Below are positions 1-4,103 of a stretch of DNA of 64,000 nt, in pieces. The DNA is from Phycisphaerales bacterium (lineage in GTDB: Bacteria; Planctomycetota; Phycisphaerae; Phycisphaerales; SM1A02). The position numbers and the translations under genes are program-made. Numbering within the stretch: position 1 is the first letter of the stretch; every line of letters starts with the position of its first letter. Below the pieces are notes generated by a model, which saw only the letters and a list, made by a program, of their open reading frames with translations, made no database searches and was not told where the DNA came from. Location of the stretch: assembly GCA_009691915.1 (NCBI GenBank), contig SIAD01000006.1:1-64000 (forward strand), read 5' to 3'.

Positions 1-294
1 TGGTACACAAGCAACTCAGGCAACGCGACTCACGCAGTCGCCACAAAGCTTCCAAACGCCTTCGGTCTCTATGACACTCTTGGCAACGTCTGGGAGTGGA
101 ACCAGGACTGGTACGGCGCGTACAGCGCTGCGGCAGTCACCAACCCCACAGGCCCCGCGAGTGGTTCGTATCGGCTCCTGCGCGGCGGCGCGTGGAACAA
201 CGTCTCCAACAACTGCCGCGCGTCGCAGCGCTACAACAACAAGCCGTACAACGCCAACAGCTTCATCGGGCTCCGTGTCGCCAGGACTCCTTGA
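1..294 (+). CDS. DGR target protein, C-terminal part (FGE-sulfatase / C-type-lectin fold), 5' truncated by window
   Basis: The last 97 codons of a gene entering from the left edge, ending at TGA 292-294. The fragment reads as the C-terminal half of a formylglycine-generating-enzyme (SUMF1/FGE-sulfatase) domain: FGLYDTLGNVWEW (residues 21-33), then [10 protein letters not shown] (58-67), CRASQR (72-77) and the closing IGLRVA (89-94). This fold is a known class of DGR-diversified ligand-binding protein. The last third (from codon 56) is the variable repeat. Compared with the template, residues 56 (Thr to Ser), 57 (Asn to Tyr), 68 (Val), 78 (Tyr), 81 (Lys), 83 (Tyr), 87 (Ser) and 88 (Phe) are changed, while eight other template Asn codons are kept. 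The N-terminus, and so any signal peptide or anchor, is outside the window. Fold and DGR-target role are well supported; the ligand is unknown. Catalytic FGE activity is unlikely to be its job, but this cannot be judged from the fragment. Confidence 0.93.
   Translation, partial: WYTSNSGNATHAVATKLPNAFGLYDTLGNVWEWNQDWYGAYSAAAVTNPTGPASGSYRLLRGGAWNNVSNNCRASQRYNNKPYNANSFIGLRVARTP
166..284 (+). repeat. DGR variable repeat (VR)
   Basis: A 119-base direct copy of the template repeat 1,676 bases downstream, in the same orientation and inside the 3' end of the target gene. Ten positions differ (VR/TR): 166 T/A, 169 T/A, 202 G/A, 203 T/A, 232 T/A, 243 G/C, 247 T/A, 260 G/A, 262 T/A, 263 T/A. Nine are at template adenines; the exception is 243. 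The last 20 shared bases (265-284) are identical. Beyond 284 the copies diverge (G285 against T, T288 against G), as expected where a DGR initiation-of-homing sequence differs between VR and TR. Confidence 0.95.
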
Positions 295-390
295 TTTCCT
301 TTTCTCTTTTTCCTCTTCCATTTTCGGCTGCGAGGCTGTTTTCCTGAGGCTGCCTTCCGAGGCTGTAGAACCAAAGCAAAAAAATTTTGA
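285..390 (+). other. Intergenic segment after VR: polypyrimidine tract, triple GAGGCTG, A-rich patch
   Basis: After the target stop codon the sequence becomes almost purely pyrimidine (about 295-323), out of character with the GC-rich surroundings. It is followed by three copies of GAGGCTG at 332-338, 346-352 and 359-365 (spacings 14 and 13) and an A/T-rich patch at 376-390. No clear hairpin was found by eye. By position this is where DGRs carry cis signals for target recognition, and the A/T patch could hold the avd-RT promoter. Both roles are inference. Confidence 0.4.
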
Positions 391-426
391 AAACTGGCAG
401 ATGCGCAACCCTCTGAACCGGCGGCT

Positions 427-789
427 GTGATCCTGGCGAGCGATCTCCTGAAGTGGATCATTCCCAAGGTCGGCAAGTTTCCAAGAACAGTTCGCTACGG
501 TCTTGGTGCTCGTATCGAAGCAGCACACTTGGATGTGCTTGAGGAACTCGTTCACGCGCAGTACACGCGCGGAGCCGACCGGACGCGATCACTCGACTAC
601 GCCAATCGCCGACTTCAGGTGGCGCGGCTGCTGGGACGGTTGGCCAACGAAATGGAATTGTTCAGCAACAAATCAGCGGTATATCTGGCAGGATTGCAGG
701 TCGATCTCGGAAACCAGGTGGGAGCATGGCGAAAGGCATCGGCAGAAACGGCGAACTCTTCAAGATCCTCTGTGACCCAGAGCACCTGA
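427..789 (+). CDS. avd: DGR accessory variability determinant (Avd-like four-helix protein)
   Basis: A 120-residue, mostly helical, basic protein between VR and the reverse transcriptase, where DGRs encode Avd, the pentameric partner that binds the RT and template RNA. Family-like features: WIIPKVGKFPRTVRY near the start, then RIEAAHLDVLEELVHAQYTRG, a long central helix (RRLQVARLLGRLANE) and a conserved-looking GAWRKA near the C-terminus. Length matches Avd (about 110-130 residues). The start is taken as GTG 427; the frame is open back to 391 without an ATG, and no strong ribosome-binding site is visible. The 3' end overlaps the RT start by 64 bases, suggesting translational coupling. Confidence 0.85.
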   Translation: MILASDLLKWIIPKVGKFPRTVRYGLGARIEAAHLDVLEELVHAQYTRGADRTRSLDYANRRLQVARLLGRLANEMELFSNKSAVYLAGLQVDLGNQVGAWRKASAETANSSRSSVTQST

Positions 790-1802
790 TTGAGAGTGCA
801 AGGGACGCGGCCCGTGGCAAGCGGCGAAAGCCGGATGTCGCGAAGTTTCTTCTAAACCTCGAACCCGAATGCTTTCGACTCGCCCGCGAACTTGCGTCCG
901 GAGTCTGGCAGCCCGGCGGATACCGATCATTCCACATCATTCATCCCAAGCCGCGGATGATCAGCTGCGCCCCCTTTGAGGATCGGGTCGTGCATCATGC
1001 CATCGTCTCGGTGCTGACCGCTCACTTCGAGAGGCGGTTTGTCGCCCACTCCTATGCCTGCCGAGTGGGCAAGGGCACCCACCGCGCTCTGGCGCGGGCC
1101 GCGCACCTGACCAAGACCCGCGCCTTTGTCCTGCGCGGCGATGTCGTCAAGTTCTTTCCCAGCATCGATCATGAAGTCGTGAAGCGCGAGGTGCGCCGGG
1201 CGGTGTGCGATGAGGCGCTGCTGCGGGTGCTTGATCAGATCATCGATGGCAGCAATCCTCAGGAGCCGGTGCAGGAGTGGTACGCGGGCGATGACCTGTT
1301 CTCACCGCTCGAAAGGCGGCGGGGTCTTCCCATCGGCAACCAGACTTCGCAGTTTCTCGCCAATGTGCTGCTCGACCGCCTCGATCACGCAGTCATGGAC
1401 CAGTCCGGCTTCGGCGACTACACCCGGTACTGCGACGACTTCCTGGTCTTCGCGGACGATCGGGAAGCGCTTTGGGACCTGCGCGCGAAGATCGAGGGGG
1501 TTCTGGAGACCCTGCGACTGAGCCTTCACCCGCGCAAGGGCGGGGTGCATGCGACGAAGTCGACGATTCCGTTCCTTGGGTTCACGATCAAGCGGGGGCA
1601 GCGGCGACTGAAGCACGACAGCGTGGTACGGGCGACACGAAGGCTGCGCGCGGTTGGCCGACAGGTCGCTGAGGGACTTATCTCGTGCGAGTCGTTGCGG
1701 GCAAGGATCGCCGCCTGGGTCGGGCATGCCTCGCACGCTTCGAGCCCGCGAGTCATTGACACCGTGCTGGCGAGAGCCAGGCTGGCGGGTGCTCCAGCCT
1801 GA
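726..1802 (+). CDS. DGR reverse transcriptase
   Basis: A 358-residue reverse transcriptase that copies TR RNA into cDNA with errors at adenines. Visible motifs: RGDVVKFFPSID (137-148, first catalytic Asp), GLPIGNQTSQ (200-209), YCDD (235-238, catalytic Asp pair) and HPRKGGVHATKSTIPFLGF (268-286). The IGNQTSQ form of the fourth RT block separates DGR RTs from group II intron RTs, which normally have QG there. There is no maturase or HNH domain, also typical of DGRs. ATG 726 follows a GGTGGGAG-like site and lies inside avd. TR begins 39 bases after the stop codon. The arrangement target/VR - avd - RT - TR is complete. Confidence 0.96.
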   Translation: MAKGIGRNGELFKILCDPEHLIESARDAARGKRRKPDVAKFLLNLEPECFRLARELASGVWQPGGYRSFHIIHPKPRMISCAPFEDRVVHHAIVSVLTAHFERRFVAHSYACRVGKGTHRALARAAHLTKTRAFVLRGDVVKFFPSIDHEVVKREVRRAVCDEALLRVLDQIIDGSNPQEPVQEWYAGDDLFSPLERRRGLPIGNQTSQFLANVLLDRLDHAVMDQSGFGDYTRYCDDFLVFADDREALWDLRAKIEGVLETLRLSLHPRKGGVHATKSTIPFLGFTIKRGQRRLKHDSVVRATRRLRAVGRQVAEGLISCESLRARIAAWVGHASHASSPRVIDTVLARARLAGAPA

Positions 1803-1841
1803 GACGAGCTACGCTGCCCGCGGCGTGATTCCGACATCGAC

Positions 1842-1960
1842 ACGAATCGGCTCCTGCGCGGCGGCGCGTGGAACAACAACTCCAACAACTGCCGCGCGTC
1901 GCAGCGCAACAACAACAACCCGAACAACGCCAACAACAACATCGGGCTCCGTGTCGCCAG
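1842..1960 (+). repeat. DGR template repeat (TR)
   Basis: Non-coding template for the variable repeat. Read in the VR frame it holds 15 Asn codons (14 AAC, one AAT) clustered at the surface-loop positions of the target: three before and two after a Ser codon, then runs of four, two and three. AAC is the usual DGR template codon because substituting its two adenines gives many residues and never a stop. Nine of its adenines are replaced in the VR copy. The lone non-adenine difference is C1919 (VR G243). Sequence beyond 1960 is not shared with the target gene. Confidence 0.95.
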
Positions 1961-2157
1961 TACGCCTCGCCTCGAACTGTCGCAAGTGATTGCGCGGGAA
2001 TAGCCGGCGAGGAGTCCAGGGATCAGGCCAGGGTCATTGACCCGAATCGACGACACCATCACCGCGCGCTGGGAACCCGGCTCGCTGTGGTGTGGGGGCA
2101 GCGTGTGTTCGCCGCGGGACAAGTTCGCCCGCGGCGAACACTCTGAGTCCGCGCGGA
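1961..2157. other. Non-coding region after TR
   Basis: No convincing reading frame. It probably holds the 3' part of the template RNA transcript and ends in the strong hairpin at 2105-2141. GC-rich, with no repeats to the rest of the window seen. Confidence 0.5.
2105..2141. terminator. Perfect 14-bp hairpin, likely bidirectional transcription barrier
   Basis: GTGTTCGCCGCGGG (2105-2118) pairs perfectly with 2128-2141 across a 9-base loop. It stands between the DGR template RNA region and the 3' end of the convergent zinc-ribbon gene (stop at 2158). There is no T-tract on either strand, so it is not a textbook intrinsic terminator. It could terminate or stabilise the TR transcript on one side and the zinc-ribbon mRNA on the other. 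Confidence 0.6.
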
Positions 2158-2481
2158 TTACTGCGCGTCGCGCTCCAGCGCCTTCGTGGCCATCGTGATG
2201 CAGCGCGTGCAGATGATCGCCTCTGGCCATGCGGCGCTGCGCCGTGCTGGCTCCTCGCGCGCCTCGCGGCACATGGTGCAGTCGAGTGCTGGCACGCCAT
2301 CGCGATCATCGATTCCGTTGAGAATGACCGCGCGGTAGGCCTCGGCGAGACACTGGCCACACACACACGCACCGAGATGCCCTTCGATCATCGGACGGGA
2401 GTCGGTCCACTCCGAGTGACAGAAGTCACACAGGACATCTGACATCGCGACATTCGCATGATCAGTTCCCTGGCGGCGCAT
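2158..2481 (-). CDS. Small protein with four CxxC zinc knuckles
   Basis: Up to 107 residues with CDFC, CVCGQC (containing CGQC), CTMC and CTRC, so four cysteine pairs able to bind one or two zinc ions. The spacing recalls treble-clef or ClpX-type zinc-binding domains, but no known family is recognised. The M at residue 13 (start 2445) is an equally good start and would open with MSDVLCDFC. It converges on the DGR across the 2105-2141 hairpin and is divergent from the histidine kinase at 2523. Function unknown; zinc binding is inferred from the cysteines. Confidence 0.65.
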   Translation of the reverse strand: MRRQGTDHANVAMSDVLCDFCHSEWTDSRPMIEGHLGACVCGQCLAEAYRAVILNGIDDRDGVPALDCTMCREAREEPARRSAAWPEAIICTRCITMATKALERDAQ

Positions 2482-2522
2482 GGTGTAAGAGTAGGCGCAT
2501 TCGGCTGAGCTACCCTTCGACC

Positions 2523-4103
2523 ATGGCCCGCGGACCGTCTCTTGCCACCAAGTGCCAACTGCTCTTCGGTGCCGCCGTTGTCCTCATCCTGGCGGGGGCG
2601 CTCGTCGTCCCCTGGCTGCGGCTTGAGAAGGTCGTTGAGGAGAGTCAACGGGAGATGTCCCGCCAGCTCGCCGAAACCTGGCTGCGCAACGGATTCGCCC
2701 TCTCGCGCACGGAGGGGATCCCCATCCCCATCAGAGTCGTGCCCGTTGAACTTCTGGAGGGGACAGCGACGGTCGACCCATTCGTGGAACAGGCGTACCG
2801 AAGGTTTCAGGCAGACCCAAGAGACACGGAGTCGTTTGCCTCGCAGCGGACCTCAGAGTCGGTCGTCTACCGATACGCCCGCGCCTTGCGCGAGAGCGAA
2901 TGGCGGGCGATACAGGACCGCCCGTTTGTTGACTTCTCCGCACGAGCTTCCGAGACTTCACTCGAGGATCCATTGCGCGCGATCATGGTGATCGAAAGGA
3001 CGAGCCAGTTCGCGGCCCAGCAGATCGCGTCGAATCGGTGGTCGATCATCCTGGGGGGAGCTGTCGCGGCCGTTCTGGCGACTGTCGTCTTCGCGCTGAT
3101 CCTGACCAAGCTGGTGTTTTCGCCTGTCAGGCGGCTGACAGATGTCGCCAAGCGGGTGGAAGGGGGAAACATCGCCTTGCGGACGGCACTGCTGACGGGG
3201 GACGAGTTCGAAGAACTCTCCCGCGCTTTCGACGGCATGCTCGACGAGGTCTCCAAGGTGCAGGTGTCGCTTCGGGCGATGAATGAGTCGCTCGACCTCA
3301 AGGTCGTAGAGTTGAGCGAGGCGAATGTCGGACTCTTCGAGAGCAACCGTCTGAAGAGCGAGTTTCTCGCCAATGTCTCCCACGAGCTGCGGACCCCACT
3401 CAATTCCATCATCGGCTTTGCGGAGCTGCTCGACGAGGTTGCACGCAACGACGCCGCGGCGGATCCCAAGAGGCGCCGGTACATCTCGAACATTCTGACG
3501 AGCGCGCGGACACTCCTCGACATGATCAACGAACTCCTCGACATGGCGAAGATTGAGGCGGGAAGGATGTCGCTGGCGATCGTCCCGGCAAGCGTCGTCG
3601 ATGTCCTTGAGGGACTCGAAACGATCATGCGCCCGCAGGCTATGGCGAGAGGGCTGACGCTCGCAGTCACCGTGACGCCGGAACTGCCAAGCGTCGAGAC
3701 CGATCCGGGAAAACTCCAGCAGATTCTCTACAACTTCCTGAGTAACGCGATCAAGTTTTCGCCTGAGTCGGGGACAATCCGCATCGAAGCGCGGCCAGGG
3801 GATCTCGACTCGCGCGGCGCGGTAAGAATCTCCGTCTCTGACGAGGGCCCGGGAGTGGCCTACGACCTGCAGGAGACGATCTTCGAGAAGTTCCGGCAGG
3901 TCGATGCGAGCCACACCAAGGCGCACGGAGGAACGGGGTTGGGGCTGGCGATCTGCCGCGAACTTGCGGAGATGCTCGGGGCGTCGGTGGGGATCGTGTC
4001 CGAGCCCGGCAGAGGATCAACCTTCTTCGTGGAAGTGCCGCTCTATCACCGGCCCCGAGAGCGCAAGCCACTCATCGGTGCTGCCCCAGCTCGTCAGCGA
4101 TGA
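2523..4103 (+). CDS. Membrane sensor histidine kinase (HAMP-HisKA-HATPase)
   Basis: A 526-residue two-component sensor kinase. One membrane segment lies at about 11-31, a periplasmic region of about 140 residues follows, and a second membrane segment sits at about 174-199. Then come a HAMP linker (about 197-250), a coiled coil, and the dimerisation/phosphoacceptor helix HELRTPLNSIIGF with His287. The ATPase domain shows the N box (NFLSNAIKF, 404-412), DEGPG (440-444) and GGTGLGLA (469-476). No response regulator or receiver domain is adjacent, so it is an orphan kinase here. The last 32 bases overlap the convergent gene at 4072. Confidence 0.93.
   Translation: MARGPSLATKCQLLFGAAVVLILAGALVVPWLRLEKVVEESQREMSRQLAETWLRNGFALSRTEGIPIPIRVVPVELLEGTATVDPFVEQAYRRFQADPRDTESFASQRTSESVVYRYARALRESEWRAIQDRPFVDFSARASETSLEDPLRAIMVIERTSQFAAQQIASNRWSIILGGAVAAVLATVVFALILTKLVFSPVRRLTDVAKRVEGGNIALRTALLTGDEFEELSRAFDGMLDEVSKVQVSLRAMNESLDLKVVELSEANVGLFESNRLKSEFLANVSHELRTPLNSIIGFAELLDEVARNDAAADPKRRRYISNILTSARTLLDMINELLDMAKIEAGRMSLAIVPASVVDVLEGLETIMRPQAMARGLTLAVTVTPELPSVETDPGKLQQILYNFLSNAIKFSPESGTIRIEARPGDLDSRGAVRISVSDEGPGVAYDLQETIFEKFRQVDASHTKAHGGTGLGLAICRELAEMLGASVGIVSEPGRGSTFFVEVPLYHRPRERKPLIGAAPARQR

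Follow-up and report, generated by a model that had tools for sequence, protein, structure and literature searches.

In the Bordetella phage BPP-1 (mtd-avd-TR-brt), an element directly 3' of the VR is needed for efficient homing, and the accessible text describes the BPP-1-type target site as a GC-rich stem of 7-10 bp with a 4-nt loop, 4-34 bp from the VR (Guo 2011, PMC3240598). Among cyanobacterial diversity-generating retroelements (DGRs), many C-type-lectin (CLec) targets are remote and often kinase-linked, and the survey authors considered that cis-acting features may activate remote targets; the accessible part of that paper names cruciforms and the IMH, and no pyrimidine tract (PMC7517822). 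The DiGReF and MetaCSST surveys report DGRs in which one TR serves several paralogous targets, including FGE-type ones, and the available text of both makes no mention of a shared tract (PMC3521204, PMC6642488). In nanoarchaeal DGRs, as far as the accessible text goes, the VR is accompanied by a conserved cis feature, which there is a hairpin with a GRA triloop located within the target gene (PMC4372165). The locus studied here, at the start of a 64,000-nt stretch of DNA (the window), is a chromosomal DGR with several targets in a planctomycete host. Like BPP-1, whose RT has the motif IGSLTSQ, it combines such an RT with a TR/VR pair and an element directly 3' of the VR, and its Avd and IMH/IMH* correspond to those described in the available text of PMC12875486. 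It differs in that the TR follows the RT, the targets are several, and the RT is only ~32% identical to that of BPP-1. Furthermore, the post-VR element is a stem-loop in BPP-1 (GGGGCC-GAAA-GGCCCC, in a flank with a tract score of 12) and a pyrimidine tract in the window. With the cyanobacterial systems it shares FGE/CLec targets, many of them remote, and the plasmid-borne ones examined here had the same kind of tract. Searches of an open-access library turned up no description of a VR-adjacent pyrimidine tract.

It is virtually certain that the locus is a DGR. A sequence-only reading had proposed an FGE-family target and the order target 3' end with VR, Avd, RT, TR; all parts were found in that order (Table 1), and the assignment is borne out by the Pfam FGE-sulfatase match, the Avd and RT profiles, the RT tree and the adenine bias. 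The RT protein contains both motifs read from it earlier, IGNQTSQ and YCDD, of which the IG..SQ pattern is a mark of DGR RTs. A profile search gave phrog_1423 RT at 5.8e-100, and its closest solved structure was a reverse transcriptase, 8ub7 (E 2.2e-36), which we take to be BPP-1 bRT. In a 103-row tree the RT grouped with BPP-1 and other DGR RTs (a placement outside the DGR clade had been named as speaking against a DGR); the outgroup was a single long branch, the non-DGR RT L117 (TGSPLSP), taken in place of group II intron RTs, which were found in 0 of 61 genomes at E 1e-60. Avd matched NCBIfam NF033474 with 60.5 bits and Pfam bAvd with 33.4 bits, below the curated cut-offs of 80 and 40, and matched PHROG 3206, 'Avd protein of DGR'. 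A 48-nt match to the RT on another contig (C6, 79%) was discarded as chance. The contig begins at window base 1, and the cis target is therefore truncated, its N-terminus missing. The TR lies where it had been placed, but the repeat runs 7 nt beyond the proposed end at 1960; its 15 Asn codons were counted correctly (14 AAC and one AAT). The hairpin in the spacer 3' of the TR shows compensatory changes in relatives, and the spacer is likely the RT/Avd-binding part of the template RNA. At gathering scores, Rfam returned one tRNA and nothing else in the whole window. Among the best 25 of 80 PADLOC matches were generic RT-model matches and none for avd or the target, and the locus was not taken for a defence system. 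That the locus is undescribed held insofar as we found no literature account of it, but DGRs with several VRs, remote targets and targets of the FGE type have been well documented, as the accessible text of PMC3521204, PMC6642488 and PMC7517822 shows.

Table 1. Coordinates of the DGR features at the start of the window
Feature	Position	Strand	Remarks
cis target gene, 3' end	1-294	+	97 aa visible; stop TGA 292-294; Pfam FGE-sulfatase 5.7e-21
VR of cis target	167-291	+	repeat pair with TR; 8/9 core differences at TR adenines
IMH, invariant VR 3' end	264-291	+	same in C4, C18-tip and C27-tip targets; two fixed differences from TR copy
Pyrimidine tract, candidate homing element	295-325	+	directly after stop codon; identical in 4/4 recognised targets of the genome
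3' flank and avd start	326-483	+	repeated at 98% in C27-tip target; to 527, at 94%, in C18-tip target
avd, accessory variability determinant, 120 aa	427-789	+	NF033474 1.6e-16; phrog_3206 3.8e-16
DGR reverse transcriptase, 358 aa	726-1802	+	motifs IGNQTSQ, YCDD; overlaps avd
TR	1843-1967	+	34 adenines; 15 Asn codons in VR frame
IMH*, TR 3' end	1940-1967	+	compared with IMH
Conserved structured spacer 3' of TR	1968-2035	+	hairpin 1981-1994, GTGA loop

The VR and TR, 125 nt each, are 91% identical, and their differences concentrate at template adenines: 8 of 9 in the first 118 nt (hypergeometric p 1.4e-4) and 8 of 11 over the full 125 nt (p 1.3e-3). The bias reported earlier is thus confirmed, while its count of nine in ten is not. 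The three non-adenine differences comprise one C-to-G change and two in IMH/IMH*, the latter shared with the C4 target and both contig-tip targets (C18, C27), that is, the same in 4/4 recognised targets. In the C4 VR, 19 of 20 core differences fell at adenines (p 3e-12) when its 3-nt gap was positioned to minimise non-A differences; BLAST's own gap gave 18/21 for the entire repeat (p 8e-10). This VR contains one T-to-C change at a non-adenine, plus the 3-nt insertion.

The source genome very probably holds several DGR targets. The earlier picture of a machine diversifying one binding protein was not supported: four recognised target 3' ends have the same IMH, on the window contig (C16), on C4 and at the tips of C18 and C27, and rewriting has gone further in the C4 target (19/20 at A) than in the cis target (8/9). 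C4 carries a second full target with a Pfam FGE-sulfatase match, whose 130 nt preceding the VR agree with C16 at 127 positions; judged by their sequences, both appear to be C-type-lectin/FGE-fold genes with the VR at the 3' end. At the C18 and C27 tips the sequence begins past the final altered position, which leaves IMH and flank as the grounds for calling them VRs; by our own reading, the avd copies there are cut short after about 37 codons (C18) and 19 codons (C27). C15 contains a degraded former VR, with 22 of 43 differences at A. Dispersed adenine-mutated VRs also occur in two genomes of the same genus, each set against its own TR: 16/18, 20/25, 23/27 and 20/37 differences at A in G012 (4 of 12 matches checked) and 16/18, 22/24 and 24/29 in G016 (3 of 9 checked); VRs of a further relative, G090, treated alike, gave 15/17 and 22/24. 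The missing 5' half of the cis target was sought among 68 contig tips, none of which joins the start of C16 by an exact overlap of 15-399 nt. N-terminal halves of FGE targets run off the contig at the start of C25 and the end of C15, and would, on our reading, encode secreted, dockerin-like proteins. In a zone fixed beforehand (200-700 nt from the RT), contig tips numbered 7 upstream versus 4 downstream, no clear excess; a 1.1-kb limit picked afterwards gave 23/44 upstream versus 8/42 downstream (Fisher p 0.001), and an excess upstream of the cassette is suggestive only.

Each of the four recognised targets has the same 31-nt pyrimidine tract directly after its stop codon, and the tract is absent 3' of the TR. 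The sequence-only reading had made no mention of this unexpected feature. C4 and C16 are identical for these 31 nt and diverge exactly at the tract end. In 304,129 bases of the genome, only one distinct stretch with at least 28 of 30 pyrimidines exists, and it is VR-adjacent. Upon scoring flanks by their best 25-nt pyrimidine count, the four targets reached 25, versus 14-19 for five FGE-family ends without an intact VR (C15, two in C21, C33, C23). For a BPP-1-type stem-loop 3' of the IMH, a scan of window positions 1-2600 showed only a 5-pair stem at 325-338, and such sites were no commoner than in shuffles. The tract is almost certainly a real, DGR-linked feature and not chance.

We applied the same score to other DGR loci, where adenine bias revealed 65 VRs at 51 of 101 loci; the pair in the window was not one of them. 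At a cut-off of 20, set after the flanks had been inspected, 39 of 65 VR flanks carried a tract, compared to 1/65 for TRs and 11/211 for the ends of other genes; at 22 or more the counts were 25, 0 and 1, respectively. VR flanks exceeded TR flanks and other gene ends in pyrimidine count (MWU p 2e-14 and 2e-12), and CCCTTT occurred in 31/65 VR flanks versus 3/207 controls, the number of control ends varying slightly (211, 207, 210) with flank length. When RTs were thinned at 60% identity, a tract was seen in 13 of 31 clusters versus 0 for TR (Wilcoxon p 1.6e-4). Repeats were dropped if they had fewer than 6 mismatches, lay outside 70-260 nt, had an adenine share below 0.6 or were the weaker of two directions. 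Fifty of the 101 loci gave no VR/TR pair, those of the window and BPP-1 being among the missing, probably owing to the low-complexity filter. Some VR ends were placed too early, by anything from a few nt to some tens (e.g., L245), which lowered their scores. The tract goes with the VR and not with the cassette: it is present at the inverted VR of L148 and at second VRs or targets of L132, L139 and L153. Perfect stems of at least 7 bp were found in 8/39 tract-bearing and 6/26 tract-less VR flanks and in 14/207 controls (window not included).

The tract is not universal, as 26 of the 65 VRs scored below 20. Nor is it confined to ends with a detected VR: 17 of 27 FGE-type ends with none still reached at least 20, although most of these adjoin DGRs and may be missed targets. 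The tract was present at 9/9 VRs scored on four plasmid records from cyanobacteria and at 0/9 scored phage or viral VRs. The four VRs scored on non-cyanobacterial plasmids all fell below 20, two of which (Prosthecochloris, L245) had their VR end set too early and reached 19 when scored from the stop codon. Low scores also marked three loci scored in a single Myxococcota/delta branch, as well as three VRs from a Chloroflexota/Desulfosediminicola branch. One VR of G016 (L233, 24/29 differences at A) shows hairpins but lacks a tract, and a hairpin breaks the tract of two others there. On the tree, the trait changed 7 times for 57 loci versus a mean of 18 when shuffled, with six window-clade loci added by hand (window, L120, L123, L124, L125, L127); it is inherited, and independent origins are therefore few.

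This inheritance would also be expected if target 3' ends were simply copied together, the flank hitch-hiking and being kept alike by gene conversion among targets. The near-identical sequence upstream of the VR in C4 and C16 together with their identical tract, and the flank and avd start common to C18 and C27, fit such passive copying. We nevertheless consider it unlikely: the RTs are mostly 40-47% identical to the window's, and the letters of the tract have changed while its pyrimidine make-up and position were kept; moreover, TR flanks of the same loci lack it. Similarly unlikely is an ordinary DGR whose tract is a 3'-UTR or transcription-termination element (e.g., a Rho-utilisation site) that limits read-through from the target gene into avd-RT or neighbouring genes and is unrelated to homing. 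Like Rho-binding RNA, the tract contains little G and much C and T; it sits on the sense strand immediately behind the stop codon and, in the cis cassette, upstream of avd-RT. Yet it is also found behind remote targets on contigs other than that of the RT, it is rare at other gene ends (the 11 and 1 of 211 given above), and the nine cyanobacterial plasmid VRs have it in hosts that are not known to possess Rho. An ordinary intrinsic terminator was rejected: its T-tract would come after a hairpin, whereas here the tract comes first, and terminator-like sites in window positions 1-2600 showed no excess (2 versus 1.9 in shuffles).

Two further alternatives appear improbable. The near-pure pyrimidine runs of ~30 nt in the window clade could be homopurine-homopyrimidine elements that form a triplex (H-DNA) and open the target site, but sister-clade tracts are often interrupted by an A (TTTTACCCTTT-like), and A interruptions disfavour long triplexes. 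The DGR could also be decaying or inactive, its VR differences old and the element no longer working, as the non-adenine changes in C16 and C4, the 3-nt insertion in the C4 VR and the degraded former VR at C15 would suggest. Against this, RT, avd and TR are open and intact and the adenine bias is clean; two target contigs break off no more than 3 nt from the final altered position of the VR, which a sample with mixed VRs would produce, although repeat collapse could do the same. The DGR is likely active or recently active.

On balance, we lean towards reading the locus as a multi-target DGR in which the tract beside the IMH helps homing as a substitute for the stem-loop. The association of tract and VR was observed directly; the chances that the tract acts in homing we hold to be even. 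In the mechanism we propose, TR RNA with its structured 3' spacer would be copied by an RT-Avd complex into cDNA carrying random bases opposite adenines, and this cDNA would anneal to the sense strand of any IMH-bearing VR. The tract may leave the DNA beside the IMH unable to self-fold and easily kept open, although its low single-stranded folding is largely a matter of composition. In this DGR branch it would therefore stand in for the BPP-1 stem-loop and make a remote gene a usable target. More tentatively, and with somewhat less than even chances, the tract may serve non-phage DGRs in general as a cis-acting homing element that has so far gone unrecognised, replacing the phage stem-loop and being kept across planctomycetes, cyanobacteria, Bacteroidota, Verrucomicrobiota and others. 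IMH and tract together would license near and far targets, and duplicating this module would recruit genes to hypermutation. A tract that accompanies VRs whether cis, remote or inverted, but seldom a TR or other genes, would give a concrete, easily testable answer to how a DGR finds scattered targets, and it could help to bring chosen genes of laboratory strains under targeted mutagenesis. It could also aid in finding hidden targets.

The contig that carries the cassette (C16, 128 kb, with the window as its first 64 kb) belongs to a 2.27-Mb genome in 34 contigs, 96% complete, whose host we infer to be a planctomycete; among named relatives, the RT is closest to planctomycete MAGs, and the closest genome (G012) is listed in the same genus. 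The RT has the IGNQTSQ and YCDD motifs, its best solved relative is 8ub7, presumably the enzyme of BPP-1 (the Bordetella phage DGR), and a 103-RT tree, with a single RT from outside the DGRs as its root, places it among DGR RTs including that of BPP-1. VR and TR are 91% identical over 125 nt. Within the core, the first 118 nt, 8/9 differences fall at template adenines (p = 1.4e-4), and over the whole repeat 8/11 do so; the remaining three include the two fixed differences between IMH and IMH*, the 3' ends of VR and TR. The cassette is a new instance of a known design; published accounts already cover FGE targets, a TR after the RT, several VRs per system, and remote targets (PMC3521204, PMC6642488, and PMC7517822).

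Features of the cassette, in window coordinates
Feature	Position	Remarks
cis target 3' end	1-294	FGE-sulfatase domain
VR	167-291	125 nt
Pyrimidine tract	295-325	reads TTTCCTTTTCTCTTTTTCCTCTTCCATTTTC; right after the cis target stop codon
avd	427-789	
RT	726-1802	overlaps avd
TR	1843-1967	125 nt; begins 40 nt past the RT stop
Structured spacer 3' of TR	1968-2035	conserved hairpin, GTGA loop; also in L120-L127, L113

The sequence-only reading had the system diversify one binding protein, a claim not supported by a search of the genome with the cassette and TR: a second, complete target, rewritten at adenines, lies on contig C4, and the tips of contigs C18 and C27 hold further target ends with IMH. 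The C4 protein combines a thrombospondin-3 repeat with an FGE domain and, from its sequence, likely has a signal peptide. Its VR core differs from TR at adenines in 19/20 cases (p = 3e-12, with the gap set for the fewest non-adenine differences), and the whole repeat does so in 18/21 under BLAST's own alignment (p = 8e-10). Since the C4 VR (L031:3713-3840) has one codon more than TR, placed where the AAC run begins, VR length can change. C18 and C27 break off no more than 3 nt from where the window's VR has its last changed site, and their tips comprise IMH, stop codon, flank, and a shortened avd start at 94-98% identity to the window, with no variable site in the visible part. These avd starts, about 37 codons long on C18 (L030) and 19 on C27 (L029), point to duplication of a target together with the beginning of avd from a cassette. 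N-terminal halves of targets lie at the ends of contigs C25 and C15. A complete FGE paralog on C15 (L032:1519-2709), with a worn VR (22/43 differences at adenines) and without the tract, is probably a retired target; its C-terminus runs on beyond the point where the targets stop.

A pyrimidine tract with the same letters as the window's follows the VRs of C4, C18, and C27. Upstream of the VR, C4 and C16 are alike at 127/130 nt; past the stop codon 31 nt are identical and divergence starts exactly where the tract ends. In 304,129 bases (the window and fetched stretches of the genome, some overlapping), the tract is the sole distinct stretch with 28/30 pyrimidines. When each flank of 60 nt was scored by the number of pyrimidines in its richest 25-nt stretch, the FGE ends of the source genome that form a clean within-family control (C15, two in C21, C33, and C23; a small set, n = 5) reached 14-19. 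Relatives have alike but non-identical tracts after many, not all, VRs, both cis and remote.

A first scan of 85 related loci (671,086 bases) for tracts of 23/25 pyrimidines gave 22 on the RT strand, at least 15 of which adjoin a VR or FGE-target end on its 3' side, and 26 on the opposite strand, where the L148 tracts, and one or more in each of L141, L149, and L156, come after inverted VRs. Detection of VR/TR pairs blind to the flank in 101 loci (the 85 related loci, 15 phage or plasmid records, and the window) yielded 65 VRs from 51 loci, with adenines making up about 1082 of 1291 mismatches. At a cut-off of 20, fixed only after the flanks had been looked at, the tract was scored next to 39/65 VRs and 1/65 TRs, and at the ends of 11/211 other genes; at 22, the counts were 25/65, 0/65, and 1/211. 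The 6-mer CCCTTT occurred in 31/65 VR flanks versus 3/207 gene ends, and the sister-clade tract resembles TTTTACCCTTTT. Upon thinning the RTs at 80%, 60%, and 50% identity, 25/48, 13/31, and 7/16 clusters had the tract, with VR exceeding TR at p = 1e-6, 1.6e-4, and 0.007, respectively. On the tree, the trait required 7 changes over 57 loci versus a mean of 18 with shuffled labels. By source, the tract followed 30/43 VRs on genome contigs, 9/9 on cyanobacterial plasmids, 0/4 on other plasmids (two of these, from Prosthecochloris, score 19 if counted from the stop codon), and 0/9 on phages or viral contigs.

The tract does not count among the features that define DGRs, and hairpin and tract may be alternatives, because 26/65 VRs score below 20, a clearly adenine-mutated VR of the relative G016 (L233) has hairpins in place of the tract, and two further G016 VRs have a hairpin within it. 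BPP-1, with a stem-loop in that place, has a score of 12 when counted from the annotated end of its VR and gave no VR/TR pair in the 101-locus detection. FGE-type ends without a detected VR score at least 20 in 17/27 cases and are no clean control, since they include known targets of the window's clade and other DGR-adjacent ends. A 25-nt hairpin, GCAGGCTCCGC-CAA-GCGGAGCCTGC, stands inside or before the tract at several VR-like target ends of G016 and G005 (L224, L230, L225, and L213).

As single strands, the tract flanks are unusually unstructured (-1.25 vs -4.03 kcal/mol), and as a candidate homing element the tract would keep the DNA beside IMH open for the cDNA. It is also possible that the tract is a Rho site, or that it is a flank hitch-hiking with the targets. 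We found no description of a VR-adjacent pyrimidine tract in the open-access DGR literature searched, and this is not proof of its absence from print.

On the template side, the conserved GTGA-loop hairpin of the TR 3' spacer and compensatory changes in 8/22 predicted pairs across 10 sequences (a count without shuffle control) would fit a spacer that binds RT/Avd; the spacer has no Rfam match at gathering scores. A palindrome, TCGCCGCGGGACAAGTTCGCCCGCGGCGA, lies at window 2109-2137, 142 nt past TR. Its exact 22-nt core recurs upstream of the C4 target (L031:5187-5208) and nowhere else among 249 loci, both occurrences being at DGR loci.

For the relatives, each VR was set against the TR from the same genome. 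Differences fell at adenines in 16/18 (cis), 20/25, 23/27, and, more weakly, 20/37 cases for G012 (4/12 matches checked); in 16/18, 22/24, and 24/29 for G016, none of them on the RT's contig (3/9 matches checked); in 22/24 (cis) and 15/17 for G090; and in 16/33 for the single weak VR of G023. An RT match at E 1e-20 was present in 13/150 relatives, some matches being of other lineages and one (L117) not a DGR RT; the system is therefore patchy. Contig tips on the target side may be concentrated close to the RT, in which case assemblies could give too low a count of remote targets. Across L120-L196, 23/44 target-side tips lay within 1.1 kb of the RT vs 8/42 on the other side, a limit chosen afterwards; the zone named first gave 7 vs 4. 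The same genus also contains another RT lineage, DGR-like but distant at 42-43% identity (L112, L118, and L119, in G015, G002, and G016); for G002 and G016, there are matches to both.
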